The notes under the pieces: model-generated
What the model was told of the DNA's origin: nothing
Seen by the model: only the letters and a program-made list of their open reading frames with translations
Database searches by the model: none
Position numbers and translations under genes: made by a program
DNA from: Parietichytrium sp. I65-24A
Taxonomy: Eukaryota; Sar; Bigyra; Thraustochytrida; Thraustochytriidae
Direction of reading: 5' to 3'
DNA length: 64,000 bases
Assembly (NCBI GenBank): GCA_012862575.1
Contig: BLSF01000098.1
Coordinates: forward strand, 1 to 64,000
Part shown: positions 4,901 through 61,040 of the stretch, one piece after another
Layout: each line of letters opens with the position of its first letter
Numbering within the stretch: the stretch's first letter is position 1

Positions 4901-6272
4901 TTTGCAGCGGAGACAGGTTCGGCTTGAGATTATCAACGGCCTTCGTCCGATTGCATCAGACGGCGACGAGGCAAATGTTGGCAAGCGATATTCCGGCAGG
5001 TGGTGGTTTGTACAATACCTTGAAACGCTCATACACCAACTTGCATTCGCGGCCGGGCCATATTTTATTCTGCAGATTGCAATTACTGTGCAAATCGCCT
5101 TCGCCGAATCAGTCGGGCCACTCAATAGCCTGCAAAAGGAGGACATCCTGTTCCTGCCTCGTTTGAATAATTTGGGCTCGTTCTTTATCATACGCCCGCT
5201 CAAGTATACAGCCGTTGTGGTGATGGGCACAATATGCGCCTCCTATGTGCTCTTGCTCCTGGTGTACATCGATGCCACTGCATACCCGATCTTGCGGCAG
5301 CTTATCAGAAAGGCGTACGGATTGCTCTTCACCGTTAGTTTGTTTACCTTGCTAACCTTCCTGGTTTCGCAGTGTGTTTGGATCCTCCTTGCAGCCTTTT
5401 TGCAGCCCAGTGAGTTGCTGCCATTTGGAGTCTGTGTCGGCAGCTTTTTCTCCGTCATCTCGTATCAGTACCAGCGGATCTGGGCCATCAAAAAAAGGTG
5501 TGTAGCACTTTACAATGAATTTTTCAACATGAAGATGCGCGAGCGCATTCTTCAGGCCATGGCGCTGAAGAGACAGATCACGGATGGCACAGAGGAGGGG
5601 CTTCTTGCAATTTCGGAGCATGATAAAGATTACAAGTTTGACCCAAACGATCTCTTCAATCTGATAGATGACAAAGTTTCAGATTCTCCTACAGATAATG
5701 CCAGGACCGCGAGCGCTGAGAAGACGGAAAATCAGTCCAAACCTTTGGTGGGGGGAGACGGCTATTTGACGAGGGCAGAGTTTGATAGACTGTTTGACAC
5801 GTTGAACATAAACGTATTGGAGAACAAACGCGACATGTTATTCGCGTTATGTGATACCACTTCGAAAGATAAAGCCAGCGTTCCCGACGACCTCGTGTCA
5901 AGAGAGGAGTTCTTGGAGGCTTGGGACTTCCTCGTCGAAGAACTTGGCTCCAATATCTTGCGAGGCAGTCTGGGGCTTTCCAATCTCCAAATCACCCTAT
6001 ACCTGTGCGTGCTCGCAATCGTGCTCCTGCTCTTATTTGCCTTCCTCATGACCTCAGCAGCTGCATTCAAAACGAGCGGCAGTATCGCTGCACTCATTCA
6101 ATCTGCACTCATCGCTGGCGCTACGAGCGCCTCGGCCTCAATCTCCAACACTTTTGGCGCTGCCGCATCTGCCACCAACCTTGCAGGTTCCGAGAATCTT
6201 GCAAAGATAGTGGGCAAAGAGGTCGAAGATCGCATCGAGCCAGAGGTCGAAGCTTCACAGCAATCGACGTGA
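1981..6272 (+). CDS. Large multi-pass membrane protein with EF-hand loops, one intron
   Basis: Spliced as 1981-3306 and 3405-6272, giving about 1397 residues. The 98-nt intron (3307-3404) starts GTAAGT, has a CTAAC branch-like site and ends GCAG; both exons join in phase 0. A membrane helix near residues 26-48 is followed by a cysteine-containing, probably extracellular region with an EF-hand loop at residues 283-294 (DADSNGRVTSAD). A second helix lies near 578-603, then a long polar region, four or five hydrophobic segments, a second EF-like stretch (GGDGYLTRAEF) and a last helix near the C-terminus. This suggests a calcium-responsive membrane protein. I do not recognise the family and see no channel-pore or transporter signature. 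The start is the first ATG of the frame (MNNLDRG). Confidence 0.8.
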
Positions 6273-16017: not shown

Positions 16018-16018
16018 N
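16018..16018. other. Single-N contig junction 1
   Basis: The sequence before the N (14224-16017) and after it (16019-17555) are near-copies in the same order and orientation. This is what an unmerged overlap between two contigs would look like. Confidence 0.8.
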
Positions 16019-21980: not shown

Positions 21981-24092
21981 CTACTCGTATATTGGCAAGA
22001 AGGTGTTAAACGCATTCTCCGCAAAAACGCCTGGGTCATTGAACCGCCGGCCAGTGTTCATAGCGTCGATTGACTCCATCTCAGACGCGGAGAGTGTCAT
22101 GCTGAAGGCGGCCAGATTTTGCTCAATGTGACGCGCATTCGCGGACTTGAATACTGCGCCGGTTCCACGCTGCAGAGCCCAACGTAGCATTACTTGCTGT
22201 GGCGTGGCGTTGTTTGCTTGGGCAATTCGCTGAATTGTTTCATTGTCTGCCAAGCTGTCTTGCTCGGAAGCCATTCCAATCTCCATATAGCTTGCTGGAC
22301 CCAGTGCAGAAAAGCCCATCACCTGAATACCACTTTGCTTGGCGAAACGCAGGAGCTGTTGTTGAGAGTTGAGAGGGTGCAGCTCCACCTGCAACACAGC
22401 GGGTGGCAGCTTAGCGTACGAGAGCATGTCTCTCAAGAGCTGGATGTTGAAATTGCACACACCAATGCTGCGAGCGCGGCCCTCAGTGACCAAGGCTTCC
22501 ATATTACGCCAAGTTTTCTCCATCGGTATCGCAGCAAGTTCGACCTGTGGATGAGAAGCCGATGGATCGTACAACCACTCTGGTGGGTAGCGCGTATCGA
22601 AGGGAACAAACTTTTGCGCAATTGGAAAGTGAACCATGTACAAGTCTACATAGTCTAAGCCAAGGTCCTCCAGGGTACGATTCAGTGCGGCTTCGACATG
22701 GTCCCCGTGATACGTGTTCCAAAGCTTGGAGACCACAAAGAGCTCGTCGCGGCGGACCAATCCTTGCTCGATGGCCATCGCAATTCCTTGGCCAACCTGT
22801 TTCTCGTTACCATAGTCACAGGCGCAGTCCAGGTGCCGCACGCCAGCTTTGATTGCATCAACCACAACTTGAGCGGTAGACTCTTTGGGGACCTTCCAAA
22901 ACCCAAGAGCCAAGCGAGGCATGAAGTCGCCATTGTAAAGTCGCGCAAGTACTGGAGTCTCCACCGCGGTACTCTGAACTTTTCGCGACGATTCGTAGAC
23001 ACCGCGCAAAGGTGAGCGTCCGACAGAGGCGAGCACGCGTCTCGACGAATTGAACGTGTTGCGAGAGTGCATGGTGACGGCGTTGTCCACGATAATGACA
23101 TCTCCGACCTGCCACGGGATGGCGACCTTGGCCATTTCCATGTACTGAAATACGCCCTCTAAGGCGTCTGCTTCGATCGGAGTTCCGTCCCCATACAGCA
23201 CGGCCTTGGACGGGTCATTGCGAGAGTCGACCCACCCTTTGAACGCCGCGACGATGCTGTTGAAAAAGGTTTTTGTATGTGTTCCAGGAATACTTCGGAT
23301 TGCGGGAAGAACGCCCGTGGTAGTTCGAAGGTCTTCATGCTCCAGCCACTCCCATGAGTGTCCCATAGAGCGCATCGTTGCCTCCGCTTCTTCTTTCGAG
23401 GAGACCATGAAAGTGTTCTTCCAAGAGCGTCCAATTGCGCTGGTTTCATCGTCTTGCGCTGGCATCGTACGGACGTATTTTACTCCAAGACGTTCGACTT
23501 TTGCGCTGGTCTCCGGATAATTCTCCCTGAAGAATTCGTACACTTTGTGTGAAAGGATGAGCGGCGTCTCTCCCCCTCGCTCTGGAGCTACCTGGCAATA
23601 AAACATGACATACCTCGGTGGGTTTGCGACCTGTGCCATCTCGTGATGAAAGGGAATAGGTTCGGACGGAGGGGACTCGTTTGCAGTGAAGACCACATCC
23701 CCCACGATGTTCCTTCGGACGGCTGCCCCGCCGACATACGGCATGTTCTCCAAGCCAAGACTGAGGACCACATCGGCAAAGTCCTGCGGCTGCTCTACCT
23801 TGAATCCCCTCAGCAGGACTGCCCCGTGCGTTTTCGCCAGCTCCAAAATCCCATCCGCATTCTCTTCGACAATCTGCGCTGCCGAGTGATTTTCAAACCC
23901 TTGAGCAGGCCCCATCGCGAGCGGGAAGCTCTTGCCATCGACCAGTTTCGCCTCGTCCACCTCCACTTGCGCCAATCCCGCGATGCCGTTTTCCACTTTG
24001 CAAGCTGCATCTTGGCCCGAAGCCATGGCGCCAAGCACGCAAATTACGGCGCCAAACGCGCACATTTTCATCTTCTTTGCCACCGAGGTCAT
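21981..24092 (-). CDS. Fusion of TauD-type Fe(II)/2-oxoglutarate dioxygenase and aldo-keto reductase
   Basis: 703 residues on the reverse strand from ATG 24092. Residues 8-27 are a hydrophobic, signal-peptide-like segment (CAFGAVICVLGAMASGQ). Residues about 40-360 are a TauD/TfdA-like dioxygenase: iron ligands H149 and E151 (PFHHEMAQ) and distal H342 (AVTMHSRNTF). Residues about 378-703 are an aldo-keto reductase with the catalytic tetrad D422, Y427 (DCACDYGNE), K456 (VVSKLW) and H488 (YMVHFP). The first domain would hydroxylate a substrate using iron and 2-oxoglutarate; the second reduces a carbonyl with NAD(P)H. Fusion suggests consecutive steps on one metabolite, possibly in the secretory pathway; the substrate is unknown. 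There is no intron. The 3' half was copied to 13969-14963. Confidence 0.88.
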   Translation of the reverse strand: MTSVAKKMKMCAFGAVICVLGAMASGQDAACKVENGIAGLAQVEVDEAKLVDGKSFPLAMGPAQGFENHSAAQIVEENADGILELAKTHGAVLLRGFKVEQPQDFADVVLSLGLENMPYVGGAAVRRNIVGDVVFTANESPPSEPIPFHHEMAQVANPPRYVMFYCQVAPERGGETPLILSHKVYEFFRENYPETSAKVERLGVKYVRTMPAQDDETSAIGRSWKNTFMVSSKEEAEATMRSMGHSWEWLEHEDLRTTTGVLPAIRSIPGTHTKTFFNSIVAAFKGWVDSRNDPSKAVLYGDGTPIEADALEGVFQYMEMAKVAIPWQVGDVIIVDNAVTMHSRNTFNSSRRVLASVGRSPLRGVYESSRKVQSTAVETPVLARLYNGDFMPRLALGFWKVPKESTAQVVVDAIKAGVRHLDCACDYGNEKQVGQGIAMAIEQGLVRRDELFVVSKLWNTYHGDHVEAALNRTLEDLGLDYVDLYMVHFPIAQKFVPFDTRYPPEWLYDPSASHPQVELAAIPMEKTWRNMEALVTEGRARSIGVCNFNIQLLRDMLSYAKLPPAVLQVELHPLNSQQQLLRFAKQSGIQVMGFSALGPASYMEIGMASEQDSLADNETIQRIAQANNATPQQVMLRWALQRGTGAVFKSANARHIEQNLAAFSMTLSASEMESIDAMNTGRRFNDPGVFAENAFNTFLPIYE

Positions 24093-42103: not shown

Positions 42104-45100
42104 TTAACCGCCAGATTGTGCATGGATGGAGGCTAGCAGCTTTTGGATGTTCTCGAGATCGGACTTTAGGTGCCTGAAGCGTGAATCTACATGGGACTGT
42201 AAGTCTGCGAGCCCGTCAGTGTGAATCTCATTTTGCGCCTTTATCTGGCTCGAGAGAGATGCCCTGGTGTCTTCCAGGTTGGAGGTTATCTTGTGGAGGA
42301 CGCCTTGCCACTCGCCCTCGTCTCCAAGAGTCGTACTGTCGCCTCGCTCGGGGATGAGGACACAAATCCAGCGCGGGAACCAAGTCGAGTTTTCGAGTTC
42401 TGATTTCCTCATAAGCGCCTCTTGTTCGACAAGAATTCTAGCCCGCAGCAACTCAAATTGCCGGACAGAAGACTCCTGAATGCGCTCGTAACTGTCGCCC
42501 ATCAGAGCTATGAGCAAGTTGAGAAGGATGATGGGCACGATTACCATTGACAAGACGAACATTCCGCGCAACAGGATTCGAATAGAAAGCTGCGTGTTGG
42601 GCAAGCTTACGAGATCAACGCTAATGTCCCCGAAAAAGAGAGTGTTGAACATCGAGTACCCTGCCAGGCCGAAATTAGAAAAGCTCTCGGCAACGTCTTC
42701 GTCCACCTGAAGCAGCACGTGAAACGCGCTTGTGCTTGCCAACATGGCAAGAATGAGAATGACCAAAAACCACCGAATGTCTCCAACAATCGTGAGAAAC
42801 ATTCGTACCAAGGGCCCCGTCGCTCTGAAGGGTTGCAAGAAATATAGAACCCCAAACCACTTTACGTAAAGGGCAACAGCAAGAATTGGGCGGCACCGCT
42901 CCACGGACAATTGAAGAGTGGCAACAATCGCTACCCCCAGCAGAATGTGGCAAGCTTGAACCCAGTTCCAAACATCTCGAGTGAAGCGAAAGGCGCCGAG
43001 AGCAAGAAACTGTCGAATCTCTCTCCAAGCATCATAAGCGGCGAAAGGTAGCTGCATGTAGCTTACAATCGCGGCAGTTTCATACATCTCATCGGACGCT
43101 GCCTCAGGGAAGACGGCCATTAGAAGAACGAGCAACGCAAGTTCCATGATGTACACAAGCATGCCAAACTGGAACTTTGCCAGACCAAACGCTTGCCATT
43201 TGAATTCCACCAAGGTTCGAACGGTGATATTGCCAAATAAATTTGCGTTCTCGGTTTGCACGAGAGCATCAAGTAGGGAAACAGCTTTTAAGTCAGATTG
43301 GGAGGAAAAGTGGGTTCCGATATCCGGGATCGCGTGAATGAAGCTTTCGGCTCGCCCGTGTTGGCCGCGATTCCAGCTTTGCCTCCACTTGCTGTACGCG
43401 CTCCAAATAAAATTTGGCGCTTTCTTCTCCCAGGTTATTTTGTTTCGACGCGACACCCCGTACACGTCGAAGAACCGGTCACCAAAGTAATACTCATGCT
43501 GAAATCGTTGGGAAGGAGGAAGTTTAAGAAGGTGCATCTGGTCCAGGAGTTTGGCGGCGAGACTAGGGAAGGCCAGGGTCACATCTGCAATTGCTCTAGA
43601 GAGCTCCGCGTCTTGTAATTCGTCAGTACTGTTCAAAGCGAATCCATCGCCGTGATCGCCGATTCCAGATCCAAGGCGATTCACCCAGGTGGAAACCATT
43701 GTCTGCAAATTTGACTTTCTGGCATAGTCGAGAATCAGGTGCGGTCTCATGAAAAGAGGCCATAGATCCGCATGCATACCGGCCAGGCCAGCACAAAACT
43801 CGCCAAACTCCCTCTTCTCGATAGCACCTTTGCCGCCGCAGGTCAAAGGTTCAGGATTAATAATCATCTCTAGTGTCTCCCGGGGCACACTCACTCTAGC
43901 GAGCGCGCACCTTCCGACTTGCTGGACAAGCCAAGCCGGCTGACTCCGGCTGCATAGATGAGGAATGCCTTGTGCAAACAAAATAGAGTCGTCTTCGCAC
44001 CACCAGAGAAGCTCTTCTCGGAACACCAGCGAGAAGACTGGTGAGATTGTTGGCACAATCGCAAGTTGAGCCCCCAGTTCTCGAGACCACACCCGAATAG
44101 TGTTGTCTTTCCCTGCGCTCACAATTTCATCTTTGCTTATCGACAATGCTGTCACTTCAGCTTGGTGGCCTCGGAGAAGCTGAAAGCATGCACCAGTCTC
44201 GCGCCGCCACACTCGAACGTCCTGATCTTCACTGCCAGACACAATTGCCTCGGAATCCAGCACAACTGCTCGTACCGCCTTTGTGTGCCCGGAGAGCTTG
44301 TGCAGGACAGCTCCACTTGTTCTTGACCAAAGCAAAATGCAATTATCCTCCCCGCCAGACGCAACAGTGTCGCCGTCCATCGCGACACAGCGAATAAATG
44401 CCTGATGTCCTTCGAAGACAAGCATGCATGAACCGCTTGCAAGGTCCCACACGCGCGCGGTTTTGTCATAACTTCCAGAAACCGCTACGTGCCCGTCGGT
44501 GGCCACGCAAGTCACCTCTTCACTATGGCCGTCGAGCACGGCAACACATTTTGATCCTTCTACCGACCAAACTCGAACGGTCTTGTCATAGCTGCCAGAC
44601 ACGATGACGTCGTTAGCAACTGCCAGAGCCCGGATGGCGTCCGAGTGACCTTCGAGTAAAACGGAAGCACTGTCTGAGTATTCGTCAGGCCAGACGCGAA
44701 GAGCCTTGTCATAGCCAGCAGAGACGAGCGCACCGTCTGTGTATGCTATGGCGCGCACAGGTTCGGTGTGCCCCCTTCTTATTCGCACTGCAGATCCGGT
44801 ACTTCTCGCCCACACTTTGATGGACCTCCCTTTGCTCACCGATGCCAGCACATCGCCACTTATTGCAACACTGCGAATTTCATGCTTGTGAGCGCGAAGA
44901 ATCTGCAAGCACTCGCCAGTATTCCTCGACCACACCCGAACAGACTTGTCTTTGCTACCAGATACGATCAGCCTGTCGTCCATGGCGAGGGAGACGACCT
45001 CGCTACTGTGCCCAACAAGAACCTGGGAGCAGGTCATTGTTTTTAAAGACCATACCCTAATGTCCTTGTCCAAACCAGCGGAAGCTGCAGCTTCCCCGCA

Positions 45101-45784
45101 CATGGCCACTGCGAAAACCATGTGGGTGTGTCCCTCCAGTGTGTGCAGAGGCTGGCTGGTTTTCCTGTGCCACACCCTCAACGTCTTGTCTCTGCTCGCA
45201 GATATGACAAAGTGAGGGTCTATCACTACAGAATACACCGCGCCAGTGTGGCCGTATATGACATGAAGGCATGTATTCGCAGAGGTGCTCCATAATCGCA
45301 CACTCTTGTCGAGGCTCCCAGATGCCACAACACCGCCTTCAATGTCCACGCACGTCACCGGGGCCGAATGCCCATGAAACACATGCAGCAGATTCCCGTT
45401 GGAAGACTCGGTATGCGTGCGCGTCCACAGCCGCACAGTGCAGTCTGCGCTTCCTGAAACAATCTCATGCTCCTGGCCAAGGGCAACGGATGTGACTTCG
45501 TCGGTGTGGCCGCTCAAAATGAGAATGCACGTCTCCGTTCGCCTCGACCACACTCTGACGGTCATGTCCTTGCTGGCGGACACCACTACCAGCTCGTCCA
45601 TGTCGACTGCGTTCAGCTCGTCCGTATGCCCTTTGAGGTACATTGGCACAACCGCCTGCGCGGCGAGCTCTAGTGCGCCGCCCGCATTGACACCGCCGAG
45701 ACCGTTCCCATCTTTGCCATCTTTGGTCGCCTCTTTCTTGCCCGATTCATCTGGCCGGGGAGCAACCAAAGGTTTGACGCGCAT
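42104..45784 (-). CDS. WD40-repeat protein fused to a TRP-like ion-channel domain
   Basis: 1226 residues on the reverse strand from ATG 45784. Residues about 48-620 carry 13 clear WD40 repeats plus a weaker 14th, each like GHTDEVTSVA then SGSxDKTVRVWS, enough for two seven-bladed propellers. A linker of about 230 residues follows, then about six membrane segments (about 880-1095), including WFLVILILAMLASTSAFHVL, a pore-like stretch with SMFNTLFFGD, and a last helix VPIILLNLLIALMGDSYERI. That last string is the signature of TRP/polycystin-type cation channels (LLNLLIALMxxSY). A C-terminal coiled coil may drive tetramer assembly. The propellers probably act as cytoplasmic gating or anchoring modules. 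It is a single exon. Confidence 0.88.
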   Translation of the reverse strand: MRVKPLVAPRPDESGKKEATKDGKDGNGLGGVNAGGALELAAQAVVPMYLKGHTDELNAVDMDELVVVSASKDMTVRVWSRRTETCILILSGHTDEVTSVALGQEHEIVSGSADCTVRLWTRTHTESSNGNLLHVFHGHSAPVTCVDIEGGVVASGSLDKSVRLWSTSANTCLHVIYGHTGAVYSVVIDPHFVISASRDKTLRVWHRKTSQPLHTLEGHTHMVFAVAMCGEAAASAGLDKDIRVWSLKTMTCSQVLVGHSSEVVSLAMDDRLIVSGSKDKSVRVWSRNTGECLQILRAHKHEIRSVAISGDVLASVSKGRSIKVWARSTGSAVRIRRGHTEPVRAIAYTDGALVSAGYDKALRVWPDEYSDSASVLLEGHSDAIRALAVANDVIVSGSYDKTVRVWSVEGSKCVAVLDGHSEEVTCVATDGHVAVSGSYDKTARVWDLASGSCMLVFEGHQAFIRCVAMDGDTVASGGEDNCILLWSRTSGAVLHKLSGHTKAVRAVVLDSEAIVSGSEDQDVRVWRRETGACFQLLRGHQAEVTALSISKDEIVSAGKDNTIRVWSRELGAQLAIVPTISPVFSLVFREELLWWCEDDSILFAQGIPHLCSRSQPAWLVQQVGRCALARVSVPRETLEMIINPEPLTCGGKGAIEKREFGEFCAGLAGMHADLWPLFMRPHLILDYARKSNLQTMVSTWVNRLGSGIGDHGDGFALNSTDELQDAELSRAIADVTLAFPSLAAKLLDQMHLLKLPPSQRFQHEYYFGDRFFDVYGVSRRNKITWEKKAPNFIWSAYSKWRQSWNRGQHGRAESFIHAIPDIGTHFSSQSDLKAVSLLDALVQTENANLFGNITVRTLVEFKWQAFGLAKFQFGMLVYIMELALLVLLMAVFPEAASDEMYETAAIVSYMQLPFAAYDAWREIRQFLALGAFRFTRDVWNWVQACHILLGVAIVATLQLSVERCRPILAVALYVKWFGVLYFLQPFRATGPLVRMFLTIVGDIRWFLVILILAMLASTSAFHVLLQVDEDVAESFSNFGLAGYSMFNTLFFGDISVDLVSLPNTQLSIRILLRGMFVLSMVIVPIILLNLLIALMGDSYERIQESSVRQFELLRARILVEQEALMRKSELENSTWFPRWICVLIPERGDSTTLGDEGEWQGVLHKITSNLEDTRASLSSQIKAQNEIHTDGLADLQSHVDSRFRHLKSDLENIQKLLASIHAQSGG

Positions 45785-54069: not shown

Positions 54070-54536
54070 GGCGGCGCGACGTCTCGTGGGGAATTTAGCA
54101 ACCGCGAGGACTTTCAGCCTCGTAGTCCTCCCGCCAGGCACATACGTAACCCCACCCAACGGGATGTAAAGATTAAAACTGTAAGCATTGCAAGCATACG
54201 TCTATTCCTGCGAACAACGAACGTTCCGCGCCATCTCTTGTTAGTTTCCTTCTAACGCGCAAGTTCTTTGAATCGGCCGAACCCAAGCGGATTCGATTGT
54301 CAACCGAACTCCAACACAAACCTGAAAAGTTCGGTTTACGGATTACAACTGTCAAAGGTAAACCTATACACGTGCGGAATCAAGGAAACTGCATGTTATG
54401 TGGCGGGCGAGCCTCACAATTCTGCAACGTGTGTATGGTTCCCCTACACACGAACATGAACATGGGATCTGCAGAGTGTTGCTTTAACAAATTTCACGAG
54501 GATGAGACACTTGAGTGTCATAAAAAGAAATGAAGT
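54070..54536 (+). mobile_element. Internally deleted copy of the DDE/YqaJ transposon
   Basis: 54088-54256 matches 55261-55430, the 5' part of the full element; 54257-54536 matches 58797-59076, its 3' part. The 3366 bp between (55431-58796) are missing, so the 5' leader is joined straight to the last 92 codons of the transposase gene, including the cysteine-rich C-terminus. It can make no transposase. Flanking sequence also matches on the right (54537-55257 against 59074-59800), so this looks like the same locus in another allele. I could not define the element's terminal inverted repeats or target-site duplication. Confidence 0.75.
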
Positions 54537-54884
54537 TCAATCTCTCTAGACTAGAGGGCTCGATTGTGATCATGTTCCTTCAATCAATCAATGAACATCA
54601 CAACTTGAGATAGGGTGTCTAAAAGCACAGTAGCATACCTAACTACGTCACTATCTAATCATGTCTTAGCGATGGGTCCGAAGATTCAAGAGTCACCGAG
54701 AATCCTCGCATCTTAGTTCACACCTACTAATACGGGTAGAACCACGGCGTGGTCGCACACCTCGGCGCGTCAACCACCGTGAGTCGTGAATCGCAGTTTT
54801 GCGATTCACGCCGATCCCAGTACGAAGTCCTATCGCCGCATAGCTACATCGCCGCGGCCCGCGCGTGAATCGCAGAAAGCTGGA
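54537..54884. other. Upstream region of methyltransferase gene, first version
   Basis: Same as 59074-59434 with small differences (CTACATCGCCGCGG here, CTAACCTAACCTAGCCGCGG there). Contains the perfect hairpin listed separately. Confidence 0.6.
54785..54810. repeat. Perfect 11-bp inverted repeat (hairpin)
   Basis: CGTGAATCGCA, loop GTTT, TGCGATTCACG. The arm CGTGAATCGCAG occurs a third time at 54864-54875, ten bases before the methyltransferase start codon. A second version of the hairpin lies at 59329-59354. Confidence 0.8.
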
Positions 54885-55046
54885 ATGAGAGGGCGGGTGC
54901 CCCCCGAGCTGCGGGCGCTGGGCAGCAAACAGTGGTGGGAAGAAGCGTACAGCGCGGGGCGCGGCGTACGCGAGTGGTACGGGGCGCGTAAGTCGGTCCT
55001 AGGCGTGGCGGAGCGCGTGGCTCGCCAGAGTAGGGCGGCGGTAATG
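54885..55046 (+). CDS. Exon 1 of the methyltransferase gene, first version (contig end)
   Basis: 54 codons identical to 59435-59596 (MRGRVPPELRALGSKQWW and onward). The sequence is cut by the N at 55258, inside the intron. Probably the other allele of the gene at 59435-61040. Confidence 0.6.
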
Positions 55047-55257
55047 GTACGTTAAAGTGGAAGGAATGATGGTTCGATCGAGCAAAGGTGTGCGTCTGTG
55101 AATTGTTGGAAAAATTTGGAGCATGTGAATCAGGTATCTCATGTGAATCATTTGAGTTGTTTTGAAATATTTGAAGCATGGGAATCGTGTGACTCATGTG
55201 AATCATTTGAGTCGTTTTGAGTCATGTAACTTGTGTGAATCATTTGAGTCATTTTGA

Positions 55258-55258
55258 N
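55258..55258. other. Single-N contig junction 4
   Basis: After the N the sequence restarts at the equivalent of 54086 and runs in the same order to the equivalent of 55257 at about 59800, with 3.4 kb of transposon extra. An unmerged overlap of two alleles explains this. Confidence 0.78.
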
Positions 55259-55614
55259 CGTGGGGAATTTAGCAACCGCGAGGACTTTCAGCCTCGTAGT
55301 CCTCCCGCCAGGCACATACGTAACCCCACCCAACGGGATGTAAAGATTAAAACTGTAAGCATTGCAAGCATACGTCTATTCCTGCGAACAACGAACGTTC
55401 CGCGCCATCTCTTGTTAGTTTCCTTCTAACCCCTCGTACAATCTTGAAAATTTCCAAAATTCAAAAATTCAAATAAAAACTCTGCAGGAATAGGAATAGT
55501 TCTATTCTAATTCAAATTTTCGAACACGGACTGACAGTGAGTGTGTTGTTTTGTTGTTGTTGTTGTTCTTCTTATTGTTGTTGGAAGCGCTCTGCGAAGC
55601 AACACATTGTGCAA

Positions 55615-55680: not shown

Positions 55681-58600
55681 ATGGAAATGGAAGCGATGGT
55701 GGATGCCACAGAGCTGACACAGCACAGCACGCCGAGCAGTATTTGCAGCAGCAGCTCGCAACAGACTCGGTCGAGCGATGATGCACTGCGTGCGTGCAAG
55801 TGTGGAAGGACTGACCATCGGCGCACGAATAGTAGGATGTGTCCGCTTTATACTGGGAGGAAAAGCGAGCTTGCTTCAGGCGGGGGAGAAGGTGGAAATC
55901 GCTCGAATGTTAACGAGGTTGCCGAGTTGAAATGGACCCGGTGTCCTGTTCCGGATGAGTACGATCTTGTTTCTTTGACTGAAGCCAGAGATGAGTTCTT
56001 CCTGCCTCGTCTGAAGGAGCGTTGTACCGATATCTGTGCCAAGGTTCTTCAGAGGTGTCAAGCCATGGGTTTTGGGTATTTGGGCGGAGAGGAGGTGACC
56101 CCTTTTCATGTCTTTATGGTCCTCAGTCGAGGAGCTCTGGAGACCCTTCTGACTTGGACCGGGGAAAGACTCCGCTCTTCAACTAAGTTGTTCAAGGGCT
56201 ACAGAATTAGTATGGTTGAGATGCTGGCCTTCGTCAGCGCTTTCTTCCATCACCAGATTTATCAGGTACCTGTGGAAGACAACCTGGAGGTGTGTGGCTT
56301 TTCTTCGACGGATAAGCGCAAAATTCCAACCAAAAGCATATACCTGCAGCTAATTCGATGCATGAGCGCCATCGACCCTTTAGATGAAAGGTTAAGTGGG
56401 AATTCGTTCGGGCAGACTGTCGATACGGTGCAGCACATGCGGGAATTTGAGCGGCTTCTGTTTGAAGCGACCCGAAAATATACGAGCTCTCGCCACATGA
56501 GCTTCGTCGTTGACGAAGAACTGGTTGGGATGAGCTCAAAACAACTCCAAAAATGCGTACAGAGCAACAGAAAGGCCGGAAAAGACGGAGCTGAGAATGA
56601 CGGGCTTGCAGATTCTCTCTTGCGCATCGTGTATGACGTCAGGCACCATGAACGAATTGGCTACTCGGAGACAAAGGCCGTCACAGAAATACTGTCTCGC
56701 TGCAACGCAATGAATACACAATCGTGCGTTAGTGGAGCGCTCGGCGCGGGCGACCGAGGCTGCAGCAAGGATGGCTTGTTCAGTGCACTACACGAGAAAA
56801 ACGTGTCATACTTGTGCGTGAATGACAACAGGTCGAACCCGTTTATTCCAAAGAGTCAGCTACTGGAGAGGATAAAACTTTTGGAGCGGAGGCGCAACGT
56901 TGTGGCAGGAGAAACAAACACCGTTGCTGAGCGCATTGAAGCACTGGGCATGTCTGTGAACGAGGAATTCATCGTGCCTGACGACCCGCATTACGGCCGA
57001 GAGATGTTTGGCGCCATCGCCACTATTGACAGTGGAGGGAAATCGAAGGAGGTGCTTGCGCTAGCGTTTCGCGACTACCAGGAGAATCGCCCGGAGAAAA
57101 CCGCCAAAGTTGTCCGGTTTATAGAATCTGGGACAGGACTCAAAGACAAGCTCTTGCGGACTTTGTGCATGGACTTCAAGTCCATTCCCGATGGGTTGGA
57201 CTTGAAACAGCAAGTTCTATTCTATCCAACGGGTTCGAAAACACCTTCGCGTAAGGCGACCGAGGACGCGCTAAACGGCGCCGGAGTTGTTCCTATTACC
57301 TGCTGGCAACGTTCGGCCGAATGGTCTGTGGCAAGGCTGTTTTGTATCACTGCTACGTCAGGTGGTCAAATTGCGCGCATAGATCCGGATGCGCGCGATC
57401 TTCTCGTTGAGAGTACTCTAGATCTTCAGGGTTCTGCTCCTTCGCCAGGTAGTGATGATTCTGAGGTTGAAGGATTTGACGATGAGGTTCTCGAAGAGGG
57501 CCTCAGGGAGGAAGCGGGCAGGGATGATTCCGCAGGACTCTCAGGAACAACTTTGGCAGCAGAGCCAGCAACGGTTCCGCAAATTCTGGCCAGGTCCTGG
57601 CTCTTTGCAAGGGAAATGTCAACAACTGAGATGAAGGGTGGGACAATGAATGAGTCTAACCTTTTCAAAGTCGTGGCCGCATCGCCATGGTGTCAAGAAA
57701 TCTTTCATGTCGGCTTGCTCGCGCGCGCGGACACTCCCTACCTTGCAGCTTCGTGTGACGGAATCGCTCGCGTGATTCCACCGTCTCTTCCCGCTCATGC
57801 CGCAGCGGTTCTTGCGTGCGTAGAGTTTAAAACCAGGAGTGCAAAGCATCTAGTTGAGAGAGCTAGGTCAATTGCTTCAGAACGGGGTCGGTACTTTGAG
57901 TGTTCCATTGGGGATGCCACGTGGTGGAGAGCTATTCCTTACGAGGACAGAGGACAAGTCCTCCACCAAGCGATGGTTTGTGGACTGGAGTACGTCCTCT
58001 ATTGTGAAGGTAGCGTGAAAGAGTTGTTATATTCTGCCCTCGTGCGCGTGCCTAGAGAATCAAGGGAGTGTTACATGGGTGCTTTAAACAAACACAGACA
58101 TTTACTGGAATGGGCACATGAGAGCCTGGGCCATGATGGAGCGCCGCCCGAACCGCCACTCGATTTTGACCAACAAGTCCGTGAGCGACTCACGTCACAC
58201 CTTCGCATTTGGCGCGCCGTAATGAAGCGAGTTCGTACAGGCGGCGTCTTACCTCCCGTGCAGGTCTTTCAATCACTGGGCCAAGTGATCTACAACTCCT
58301 TAAAAGATGGTCTTGATGGAGACACGCAATTTGTCTCAGCGGTTACAACGCCGAATTCTGTTAAAGTCGGGTTCGATCAGCTCGTTGTGTTGCGCGGCTT
58401 GCGGCAGCTTCTCGTGAACGCCTTTATCGTGTATCGCATTATTAAGGCTTGCACCAACGACTATCGCTCGGAGTTCACCTTTGAAACGCTGGACTCCTTT
58501 CGGAACAAGTGCGACTCAATTATCACACTTGGAAAATTCACTCGATGTCTCAGCATAGAAATGCTAAGGGCTGACGAAAGTGGATATATTGCGACCACGC

Positions 58601-59073
58601 CCCCTGTTCCAGCGAAGGGCTTGGCCGCTGAACGTGAATATGTTCCGACCACGCTTCCTGTTCCAGCGAAGGACTTGGCCGCTGAACGTGAATATATTCC
58701 GACCACGGCCCCCGTTCCAACGAAGGACTTGGCCGCTCAAGTTAGAGCAGCACGCGAGATTTGCAAGAAACGGCCAAGAAACAGCGTGAAAGATGGGCGC
58801 AAGTTCTTTGAATCGGCCGAACCCAAGCGGATTCGATTGTCAACCGAACTCCAACACAAACCTGAAAAGTTCGGTTTACGGATTACAACTGTCAAAGGTA
58901 AACCTATACACGTGCGGAATCAAGGAAACTGCATATTATGTGGCGGGCGAGCCTCACAATTCTGCAACGTGTGTATGGTTCCCCTACACACGAACATGAA
59001 CATGGGATCTGCAGAGTGTTGCTTTAACAAATTTCACGAGGATGAGACACTTGAGTGTCATAAAAAGAAATGA
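55681..59073 (+). CDS. DDE-type (piggyBac-like) transposase fused to a YqaJ-type PD-(D/E)XK nuclease
   Basis: 1130 residues from ATG 55681. Order: a zinc-knuckle-like motif at about 39-57 (CKCGRTDHRRTNSRMCPLY); a piggyBac-like DDE core with a first Asp near 278 (MSFVVDEELVG), a second near 358 (GAGDRGCSKDGLF) and NPFIPKS downstream; a Ser/acidic linker (about 585-620); a YqaJ/lambda-exonuclease-like nuclease at about 650-800 with D693 (LAASCDGIARV), E715 and K717 (CVEFKTRS) and Q763 (HQAMVCGLEYV); two to three VPAKDLAAERE repeats near 1030-1060; and a Cys/His C-terminus (CILCGGRASQFCNVC, then ECCFNKFH) like the piggyBac cysteine-rich domain that binds DNA ends. The third acidic transposase residue is not certain. 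Starts upstream of the ATG are not ATG. Confidence 0.72.
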   Translation: MEMEAMVDATELTQHSTPSSICSSSSQQTRSSDDALRACKCGRTDHRRTNSRMCPLYTGRKSELASGGGEGGNRSNVNEVAELKWTRCPVPDEYDLVSLTEARDEFFLPRLKERCTDICAKVLQRCQAMGFGYLGGEEVTPFHVFMVLSRGALETLLTWTGERLRSSTKLFKGYRISMVEMLAFVSAFFHHQIYQVPVEDNLEVCGFSSTDKRKIPTKSIYLQLIRCMSAIDPLDERLSGNSFGQTVDTVQHMREFERLLFEATRKYTSSRHMSFVVDEELVGMSSKQLQKCVQSNRKAGKDGAENDGLADSLLRIVYDVRHHERIGYSETKAVTEILSRCNAMNTQSCVSGALGAGDRGCSKDGLFSALHEKNVSYLCVNDNRSNPFIPKSQLLERIKLLERRRNVVAGETNTVAERIEALGMSVNEEFIVPDDPHYGREMFGAIATIDSGGKSKEVLALAFRDYQENRPEKTAKVVRFIESGTGLKDKLLRTLCMDFKSIPDGLDLKQQVLFYPTGSKTPSRKATEDALNGAGVVPITCWQRSAEWSVARLFCITATSGGQIARIDPDARDLLVESTLDLQGSAPSPGSDDSEVEGFDDEVLEEGLREEAGRDDSAGLSGTTLAAEPATVPQILARSWLFAREMSTTEMKGGTMNESNLFKVVAASPWCQEIFHVGLLARADTPYLAASCDGIARVIPPSLPAHAAAVLACVEFKTRSAKHLVERARSIASERGRYFECSIGDATWWRAIPYEDRGQVLHQAMVCGLEYVLYCEGSVKELLYSALVRVPRESRECYMGALNKHRHLLEWAHESLGHDGAPPEPPLDFDQQVRERLTSHLRIWRAVMKRVRTGGVLPPVQVFQSLGQVIYNSLKDGLDGDTQFVSAVTTPNSVKVGFDQLVVLRGLRQLLVNAFIVYRIIKACTNDYRSEFTFETLDSFRNKCDSIITLGKFTRCLSIEMLRADESGYIATTPPVPAKGLAAEREYVPTTLPVPAKDLAAEREYIPTTAPVPTKDLAAQVRAAREICKKRPRNSVKDGRKFFESAEPKRIRLSTELQHKPEKFGLRITTVKGKPIHVRNQGNCILCGGRASQFCNVCMVPLHTNMNMGSAECCFNKFHEDETLECHKKK

Positions 59074-59434: not shown

Positions 59435-61040
59435 ATGAGAGGGCGGGTGCCCCCCGAGCTGCGGGCGCTGGGCAGCAAACAGTGGTGGGAAGAAGCGTAC
59501 AGCGCGGGGCGCGGCGTACGCGAGTGGTACGGGGCGCGTAAGTCGGTCCTAGGCGTGGCGGAGCGCGTGGCTCGCCAGAGTAGGGCGGCGGTAATGGTAC
59601 GTTAAAGTGGAAGGAATGATGGTTCGATCGAGCAAAGGTGTGCGTCTGTGAATTGTTGGAAAAATTTGGAGCATGTGAATCAGGTAACTCATGTGAATCA
59701 TTTGAGTTGTTTTGAAATATTTGAAGCATGGGAATCGTGTGACTCATGTGAATCATTTGAGTCGTTTTGAGTCATGTAACTTGTGTGAATCATTTGAGTC
59801 ATTTTGAGTCATGTAACTCGTGTGAATCATTTGAGTCATGTAACTCGTGTGAATCATTTGAGTCATTTTGAGTCATGTAACTCGTGTGAATCATTTGAGT
59901 CATGTAACTCGTGTGAATCATTTGAGTCATTTTGAGTCATGTAACTCGTGTGAATCATTTGAGTCATGTAACTCGTGTGAATCATTTGAGTCATTTTGAG
60001 TCATGTAACTCGTGTGAATCATTTGAGTCATGTAACTCGTGTGAATCATTTGAGTCATTTTGAGTCATGTAACTCGTGTGAATCATTTGAGTCATGTAGC
60101 TCGTGTGAATCATTGAGTCATTTTGAGTCATGTAACTCGTGTGAATCATTTGAGTAATTTGAGTCATGTAACTCATGTGAATAATGTGAATGATGTGAAT
60201 CATGTAACTCATTTGAATCATGTAACTCATGTGAATCATGTAAATCAGGTGAATGATGCGGATCATTTGAATCATGTGAATCATGTGAATCGTGTGAATG
60301 ATGTAACTGATGTGAATCTTGTGAATGATGTATCTCATGTAACTCATGTGAATGATGTGAAGCGTGTGAATGACGTGAATCGTGTGAATCATGAGGAGGA
60401 CAAGACGCAGAAGAGCTTGGAGTTGGAGAATTTGGGGAAATGCCAAAGTTCTGCTTCCGCCATTTTTGGAGCCGCCGATGTGGATGACATTGGAAATGCG
60501 AATGGGAGTGGGAAGCAGAGCTGTGGCGATTGGACTGCGGATGATGGGAGGTGGAAATGTGCGCATCTTGGATGCGGCACCAGCTGGCTTGGGTGCGAAC
60601 TGGCAATGCGTCTGGGCGGGGAAGCTGCCGTGGTGAACTTGGACGCAAGCGCTTCTGCGGTGAAGCTTTTGCAAGAGAGGATCCAGCGGGAGGATGGTGG
60701 GCCGAGCGAATGGAAAGAGTGGACGAGTGTCGAGTGTTTGGATTTGCTGGACGAAGAGCAGGTCGCGGCTTTCCGCGAGGAGTTTTTCTTTTGTGTTGAC
60801 AAAGGGACCTTGGACGCAGTTGAGCTCGCAGGAAAGGACCAGCAGTACCTTCGCAATGTGGCGGCGATGATGAAGCCAGGCTCGTGGTTTATGCAGGTCT
60901 CGGATGCCCCGCCAGAAGTTCGAGATGGTCTTCTGTACTTTGACGCTTGGAGCCGCGCGACCGTGTCGTTTCTCGAGAGCGATGAAGGCGGCGACGAGAC
61001 CGAACTCTTTGCGTACCTGTGCCAGAAGAAAGAAGACTAG
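59435..61040 (+). CDS. METTL-type S-adenosylmethionine-dependent methyltransferase, one satellite-filled intron
   Basis: Predicted exons 59435-59596 and 60411-61040, joined in phase 0, about 263 residues. Exon 1 holds the family's N-terminal box (ALGSKQWWEEAY then REWYGA); exon 2 holds motif I HLGCGTSWLGCELA, the acidic motif II VVNLDAS and FFCVDKGTLDAV, all typical of METTL10/12/13-like lysine methyltransferases, some of which act on eEF1A or other proteins. Donor is GTACGT after ATG codon 54; the acceptor GACGCAG at 60410 is the best phase-0 choice but lacks a pyrimidine tract, so the exact join is uncertain. The second exon has no usable start codon of its own ahead of motif I, which supports splicing. 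The roughly 814-nt intron is mostly a minisatellite. Confidence 0.72.
59660..60395 (+). repeat. Minisatellite GTGAATCATTTGAGTCATGT inside the methyltransferase intron
   Basis: Over 700 bp of units built from GTGAATCATTTGAGTC and ATGTAACTC blocks. From about 59770 to 60120 they form a regular higher-order array in which TTTGAGTCATT and TTTGAGTCATGTAACTC alternate; toward the right they degrade to GTGAATGATGTGAATC. The first version of the locus (55090-55257) carries only its start before the contig ends. Confidence 0.88.

Follow-up and report, generated by a model that had tools for sequence, protein, structure and literature searches.

Transposases that carry a second enzyme in the same chain include TnsAB, in which the two parts stand side by side and are not nested. 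This fusion of an endonuclease with a DDE transposase, known from bacterial Tn7-like CRISPR-transposons and compared here by description only, is active in its natural form and yields cointegrates when its TnsA part is mutated (PMC8188705; here as elsewhere in this text, statements on published systems refer to the available parts of the papers cited). Among eukaryotic transposons, KolobokE combines a PD-(D/E)XK nuclease of the lambda-exonuclease-like type with a DDE transposase of the C/DxxH class (PMC9587614); in some Dada elements, those of Laccaria and Ectocarpus, an exonuclease lies within the DDE transposase and follows its second D, although this is a DEDDy 3'-5' exonuclease in another superfamily that exhibits a DxxH motif (PMC3706591); and ISL2EU links a YqaJ exonuclease domain to a eukaryotic DDE transposon, but as a separate open reading frame (ORF) and with a Harbinger-related transposase (PMC4482050). 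The piggyBac transposase has an active site consisting of D268, D346 and D447, an insertion domain (residues 372–433) that splits the RNase H-like fold at a position topologically equivalent to that of the insertion in other DDE/D transposases having one, and two residues, Y439 and N440, that contact the hairpin (PMC7351741). Here we analysed a stretch of 64,000 nucleotides from the thraustochytrid Parietichytrium sp. I65-24A (assembly GCA_012862575.1, contig BLSF01000098.1, positions 1 to 64,000 of the forward strand; referred to as the window), which holds a single-frame gene for a protein of 1130 residues, P0001. We read this protein, with a probability of about 0.5, as a piggyBac-type DDD transposase, or a derivative of one, that is predicted to be interrupted between its second and third catalytic aspartates (D2 and D3) by a lambda-exonuclease/YqaJ-type PD-(D/E)XK nuclease acting at DNA ends. 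Like the piggyBac superfamily (Trichoplusia ni piggyBac, PDB 6x67/6x68; piggyBat, 9c0f), the P0001 family exhibits an N-terminal block, blocks of the D268 and D447 type and a C-terminal cysteine-rich domain (CRD); unlike it, the family has a nuclease between the blocks, and TTAA-flanked inverted ends were not found at its 14 loci.

An earlier note, made from the sequence alone, had described one open gene at 55681..59073, and this proved correct: the gene comprises 1130 codons between an ATG at 55681 and a stop at 59073, with no internal stop (the frame is also open 5' of the first ATG, with a GTG at 55537). That note had further described the gene as a transposase joined to a nuclease. Both are indeed found in one frame, but the side-by-side arrangement was not borne out: with the order D1 278, D2 358, nuclease 547–766, D3 879 and CRD 1084–1119, the nuclease is, as judged from the alignments, nested in the DDE domain between D2 and D3 and not appended beside it. 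The features of the gene are as follows:

55681..59073, forward strand: single-frame transposase-nuclease gene, P0001, 1130 amino acids
55792..55845, forward strand: N-terminal CCHC-like knuckle, residues 38–55, placed by alignment columns; C-x-C replaces C-x2-C in P0001
56101..56754, forward strand: first piggyBac block, matching piggyBac 134–308 including D268 and aligned to P0002, an ordinary piggyBac transposase of the same genome (residue mapping approximate)
56512-56514, forward strand: D1 (D278), in the first piggyBac block
56752-56754, forward strand: D2 (D358), in the first piggyBac block
56755..57318, forward strand: segment from D2 to the nuclease, residues 359–546, with the conserved D434 (from the alignment)
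57319..57978, forward strand: predicted YqaJ/lambda-exonuclease-type nuclease core, residues 547–766, from the Pfam YqaJ match of the relative L038 mapped onto P0001
57757-57759, forward strand: nuclease D693
57823-57825, forward strand: nuclease E715
57829-57831, forward strand: nuclease K717
57955-57957, forward strand: nuclease Q759
58258..58527, forward strand: second piggyBac block with a YN..K.G.DG motif, matching piggyBac 434–530 including D447 (mapping approximate)
58315-58317, forward strand: D3 (D879), in the second piggyBac block
58569..58730, forward strand: three 54-bp (18-aa) tandem repeats within the linker ahead of the zinc domain
58924..59037, forward strand: C-terminal cysteine-rich domain with C1084, C1087, C1095, C1098, C1114 and H1119, from a profile match to the piggyBat CRD

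A search of the genome (42.5 Mb, 172 contigs, the window lying on contig C98) with the P0001 protein gave 27 matches out of 38 candidates, which correspond to about 14 long copies together with fragments. Fourteen sequences were aligned (P0001, L031–L041, L043 and L044), leaving out L042, L045 and L046 as decayed or short fragments. P0001 shows 20–50% identity to the other aligned copies, and the closest pair within the family reaches 64.6%; in the tree there are two main clades of six, with P0001 pairing with L031 (50% identity) and with L044 and the distant outlier L043 standing apart. Several copies are irregular: the frame of L044 does not include the N-terminal part, an in-frame gap in L035 spans D1 and D2, L038 stops within the zinc domain, and the match of L033 contains a TAG close to its 3' end. 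Counting related copies, as the earlier note had suggested, shows the nuclease to be present in all 14, more than chance would explain, and in each case followed by the D3 block and then by the zinc domain. No relatives were confirmed in IMG/VR, GTDB genome contigs or phage records. Two pairs of copies are neighbours: L031 and L039, which belong to different clades, lie head to head on contig C67 (~191.6–199.2 kb) with ~0.5 kb between their frames, and L033 and L034 lie ~21 kb apart on contig C14.

The assignment of the transposase part comes from a HMMER search of the 14-copy profile against all PDB sequences, in which piggyBac (6x67, E 1.1e-7) and piggyBat (9c0f, E 2.9e-7) rank first and second, with the third match at 0.078; the piggyBac-like DDE region proposed earlier is thus recovered. 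The match to 6x67 falls into two blocks (profile 137–312 on residues 134–308 and profile 861–948 on residues 434–530), and counting letters in the printed alignment places piggyBac D268 on D1 of the family and D447 on D3. The counterparts of piggyBac Y439 and N440 lie within a V-I-Y-N-S motif of P0001. For D2, the equivalent of D346, the anchor is not a direct alignment to 6x67 but the comparison with P0002, an 802-aa frame without a nuclease encoded at locus L047 (Pfam DDE_Tnp_1_7, E 6.1e-42): this is the sole ordinary piggyBac transposase found in the genome and is present as a single copy, and a genome search with PF13843 matches only L047. The N-terminal profile of the family aligns with P0002 over 239 columns covering the D1 and D2 regions (hhalign, E 3.5e-5) and scores 46.4; the best among 59 shuffled sequences scores 25.2, and the reversed one 13.1. 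At the other end of the protein, the cysteine-rich domain matches residues 514–576 of piggyBat 9c0f, in agreement with the piggyBac-like Cys/His C-terminus described previously; the C-terminal profile search also finds 6x67 (E 0.013) and aligns 20 columns of the zinc region with P0002 (E 0.11), and Pfam zf-Tnp_2 appears in one member only (E 0.11). The N-terminal zinc knuckle fared less well: a full C-x2-C-x4-H-xn-C pattern is present in five relatives (L032, L033, L035, L037 and L038), but P0001 itself has C-x-C and no Pfam match to its knuckle.

Evidence for the nuclease likewise comes from the relatives. Pfam YqaJ (PF09588) matches six of the 14 members at E values up to 5, lying above the curated cut-off in L037 and L038 and below it in L036, L039 and L040, and the match in L038 spans positions 1–146 of the 150 in the profile. 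The claim of a YqaJ-type nuclease in one frame therefore stands through L037 and L038, but not through P0001 alone, which has no match of its own. The D, E-x-K and Q residues of P0001 are presumably the motif positions of lambda exonuclease, and their assignment was aided by a similar stretch in P0003, the true YqaJ protein of this genome (Pfam YqaJ, E 4.2e-23). D693, E715 and K717 were found where the earlier note had placed them. Among the 14 copies, R552, K717 and Q759 are invariant, D693 is kept in 13, E658 in 12 and E715 in 10, with the four replacements at E715 being K, G, I and D; the five residues E658, D693, E715, K717 and Q759 are kept together in eight. The glutamine Q763, which had been named as a motif residue, is present in P0001 but varies across the family (Q in 11 copies, H in two, R in one), and because Q759 is found in every copy it is the better motif residue. 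We consider it probable that the nuclease is catalytic.

The spacing of the domains is informative as to how the nuclease is held. Between the two piggyBac blocks lie ~550 profile positions in this family as compared to ~125 residues in piggyBac. Counted from the nuclease glutamine, D3 follows after 118–125 residues in each of 11 copies measured, and after 118, 121 and 124 residues in the other three. The stretch between D2 and the first residue of the nuclease, by contrast, ranges from 171 to 375 residues (11 copies), and this tether is acidic in one clade. The constancy of the former and the variability of the latter suggest a fixed join on the D3 side of the nuclease and a flexible tether on the other side. 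The segment 359–546 may hold piggyBac's own insertion domain together with a linker; it includes D434, which is invariant in an 11-sequence alignment and for which a catalytic part is conceivable from its position between D2 and the nuclease.

Several results weigh against our reading and concern both halves of the protein as well as its surroundings. P0001 alone has no Pfam match at E values up to 5, and none of the family members matches Pfam DDE_Tnp_1_7, the profile that the earlier note had put forward as a check (PF01609, DDE_Tnp_1, reaches E 0.031 in one member). The N-terminal profile alone, built from 11 sequences, finds no match in the PDB, and the stretch after D2, where the insertion domain would be expected, aligns with P0002 no better than do shuffles. 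The nuclease profile aligns with P0003 over 26 columns only (E 0.0013) and, used alone against the PDB, finds no solved nuclease but two unrelated matches (E 1.1 and 1.3); the next PDB matches of the full profile after the two piggyBac proteins are chains of R354 (0.078 and 0.080), which we take to be the mimivirus lambda-exonuclease-like nuclease, and these arise via an SxDGI motif only. Structure models built from single sequences, both for the nuclease part and for the complete protein, have a pLDDT of 35, and in several relatives catalytic residues of one domain or the other are missing. As for the surroundings, no TTAA-flanked inverted ends were found at the 14 loci within up to ~2.5 kb per side, in a search run without a shuffle control on copies that are old and whose ends may have decayed; the 3' flank of P0001 matches its own locus only, and the 5' flank matches its own locus twice and elsewhere only in stretches of ~30–70 bases. 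We place high confidence in the joint occurrence of a piggyBac-type DDE domain and a nested nuclease.

The frames themselves have been maintained. In the three closest pairs, for which dS can be computed (1.46–2.39), dN over the whole frame is 0.24–0.36 and dN/dS ~0.14–0.2, so that all parts are under purifying selection. The dN of the nuclease part in these pairs is 0.18–0.27, and in all seven pairs computed, of which the other four are saturated in dS, it is lower than that of either of the other two parts. When neutral drift was simulated for four ORFs, 200 times each and with every lineage assigned half of dS, the mean was 39–53 stops per ORF and the minimum 22; as long frames survive where drift predicts at least 22 stops, the copies have been selected for most of their separate history. 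The catalytic aspartates are less uniform: with L044 excluded, 10 of 13 copies keep D1 and 10 of 13 keep D2, and with it included 11 of 14 keep D3. The complete triad is found in seven of 13 copies (P0001, L031, L032, L033, L037, L038 and, on an uncertain alignment, L043), and both the DDD and the nuclease sets are complete in P0001, L032, L037 and L038.

Searches for signs of mobility yielded little. A search within ~1.8–2.6 kb of each frame for identical 4-bp duplications combined with inverted ends, in which 12 or more out of 16 positions had to match, gave between zero and two candidate pairs per locus at the 14 loci, none with TTAA. In six related pairs compared for shared element ends, DNA similarity is confined to the ORFs except for one repeat of ~110 bp, located beside L032 (2117–2225), L034 (6195–6303) and L036 (6557–6665), inside which the open reading stops as judged by eye. 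This repeat was rejected as a shared element end, being multicopy: 40 matches were scored of 87 candidates, and 15 places have at most three mismatches to its 45-base core. In an alignment of 11 copies the 5' limits vary and the 3' limits are mostly shared, and the repeat is probably the 3' end of a retroelement; Rfam gave no match to positions 5900–6500 of L034. Near-identical dispersed copies or non-autonomous derivatives were not found in the genome, the sole exception being a deleted copy that adjoins the gene:

54085..55257, forward strand: internally deleted near-copy directly 5' of the gene, with 172 bp identical to 55259-55430 followed by a 98–100% copy of 58797 onward
55258..55258, no strand: single N at the junction of the deleted and full-length copies

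The near-copy lacks ~3.4 kb and holds the 5' flank, the 3' end of the gene and the 3' flank. As the single N at 55258 suggests an assembly join, it is possibly a second, deleted allele that the assembler attached to the first, and not a derivative that arose in tandem; were this the case, P0001 would be dispensable on at least one chromosome. Single Ns are also present at 16018, 20453 and 35901 and may mark further assembly joins.

Turning to what such a protein might do, the chemistry of piggyBac requires no other nuclease and its excision leaves no footprint, and domains of the lambda-exonuclease type work 5'-to-3' on duplex ends. In our reading the DDD centre would perform the piggyBac reactions, namely nicking, hairpin formation, hairpin opening and TTAA-directed strand transfer. 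The nuclease, with its fixed spacing to D3 and a variable linker as tether on its other side, would work at these DNA ends too, but on the other strand, the 5' one, which is the simplest gain that such a domain could bring. There it could trim a 5' overhang or flap at the element ends, or it could resect the donor break and so favour repair templated by the sister or homologue, through which the element would regain a copy. We regard such an end-processing role as an even chance, every one of these steps being our inference. A bolder and rather unlikely variant is that the insertion-domain slot has turned into a second active site, with the DDD centre cutting one strand and the nuclease, fixed in its spacing from D3, processing the other in the same complex, as a eukaryotic counterpart of TnsA-TnsB; in this protist the paralogues would then form a mixed complex, with transposase activity coming from some and nuclease activity from others, and this complex might have been domesticated for repair or for the programmed removal of DNA.

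Because the searches turned up neither TTAA-flanked inverted ends nor near-identical copies scattered through the genome, any mobility of the family is hypothetical, and the main rival reading, a serious one, is domestication: the family would be an immobile set of host genes with a cellular role in DNA cutting or repair, in which catalytically incomplete paralogues serve as structural partners. We hold this to be possible, though doubtful. It would suit 14 dispersed copies that retain long open frames with no pair closer than 64.6% and with synonymous distances of at least 1.46, for which drift predicts at least 22 stops per ORF, as well as the lack of non-autonomous copies elsewhere. The six of 13 copies that do not have all three aspartates are moreover reminiscent of Paramecium, where Pgm and the PgmLs are likewise divergent protist piggyBac paralogues, the PgmLs with incomplete triads, and where such broken-triad paralogues can be essential partners (PMC6143343); unlike the present family, the Paramecium proteins are known to be domesticated, and no nuclease insert is mentioned in the available part of that paper. 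The copy number and the fragments L042, L045 and L046, whose frames are short or hold stops, look instead like the birth and death of dispensable elements, and the TAG near the 3' end of the L033 match and the possible deleted allele of P0001 point the same way.

Two further explanations concern the identity of the parts. The inserted domain could be a DNA-binding or architectural one without nuclease activity: the replacement of E715 in four copies, of E658 in two and of D693 in one would be compatible with this, as would the fact that the insertion domain native to piggyBac is small, beta-stranded and in contact with DNA (PMC7351741). The invariance of R552, K717 and Q759, the retention of the five-residue set in eight of the copies and the lowest dN of the nuclease in every pair nevertheless make this improbable. 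Alternatively, the protein could belong to a KolobokE-type element and not be a piggyBac relative at all, as KolobokE is TTAA-specific and joins the same kind of nuclease to its transposase (PMC9587614), and the conserved D434 is arguable as a third acid given that D3 is lost in three of 14 copies. This we consider highly improbable: the nuclease of KolobokE lies downstream of the transposase domain, but here the D447 block and the CRD of piggyBac come after the nuclease. Membership of Kolobok was also rejected on its motif, as C/DxxH between D2 and the last acid is not conserved in 11 copies with the nuclease excluded: single matches outside the nuclease occur in seven of the 11, at seven different alignment columns.

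With respect to novelty, the earlier note had held the combination to be undescribed, and this applies to piggyBac within the literature that we searched but was overstated in general, given the precedents of ISL2EU, KolobokE, Dada and TnsAB. Thus, add-on nucleases on transposases are already known, and it is the placement inside a piggyBac-type catalytic domain that is apparently new: no description of a nuclease nested in a piggyBac-type transposase was found, in a search that did not extend to subscription journals or Repbase. Teratorn does combine a piggyBac transposase with herpesvirus genes, but as a composite element of 180 kb and apparently not as one nested protein (PMC5601938). A paper on clam genomes lists YqaJ and herpesvirus exonuclease as viral domains able to fuse with transposases, its available part giving no such protein (PMC7826175), and in a weevil paper both words are merely filter terms as far as its available part goes (PMC13289751). 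A nuclease at the insertion-domain place of a DDE transposase would show that a second enzyme can be accommodated there, and it would make testable the question of why nucleases have been taken up repeatedly by transposons of eukaryotes (KolobokE, KolobokD, Dada and ISL2EU, to which a piggyBac relative is now added). The lack of any Pfam match to P0001 also indicates that Pfam scans of single proteins can miss proteins of this kind.

The remainder of the window holds eukaryotic genes: ten of its ORFs were scanned with Pfam and seven have matches at E 0.001, including a kinesin, a TH1 protein and a WD40-ion channel protein. The last of these is a 1226-aa ORF on the reverse strand (42104-45784) with WD40 repeats and an Ion_trans channel domain, and a further reverse-strand ORF of 703 aa (21981-24092) combines a TauD dioxygenase with an aldo/keto reductase domain. 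To the 3' side of the transposase-nuclease gene, a minisatellite-like array of 9-bp-based units (59750-60420), in part with a 64-bp period, overlaps the start of a methyltransferase-like ORF (60123-61040).

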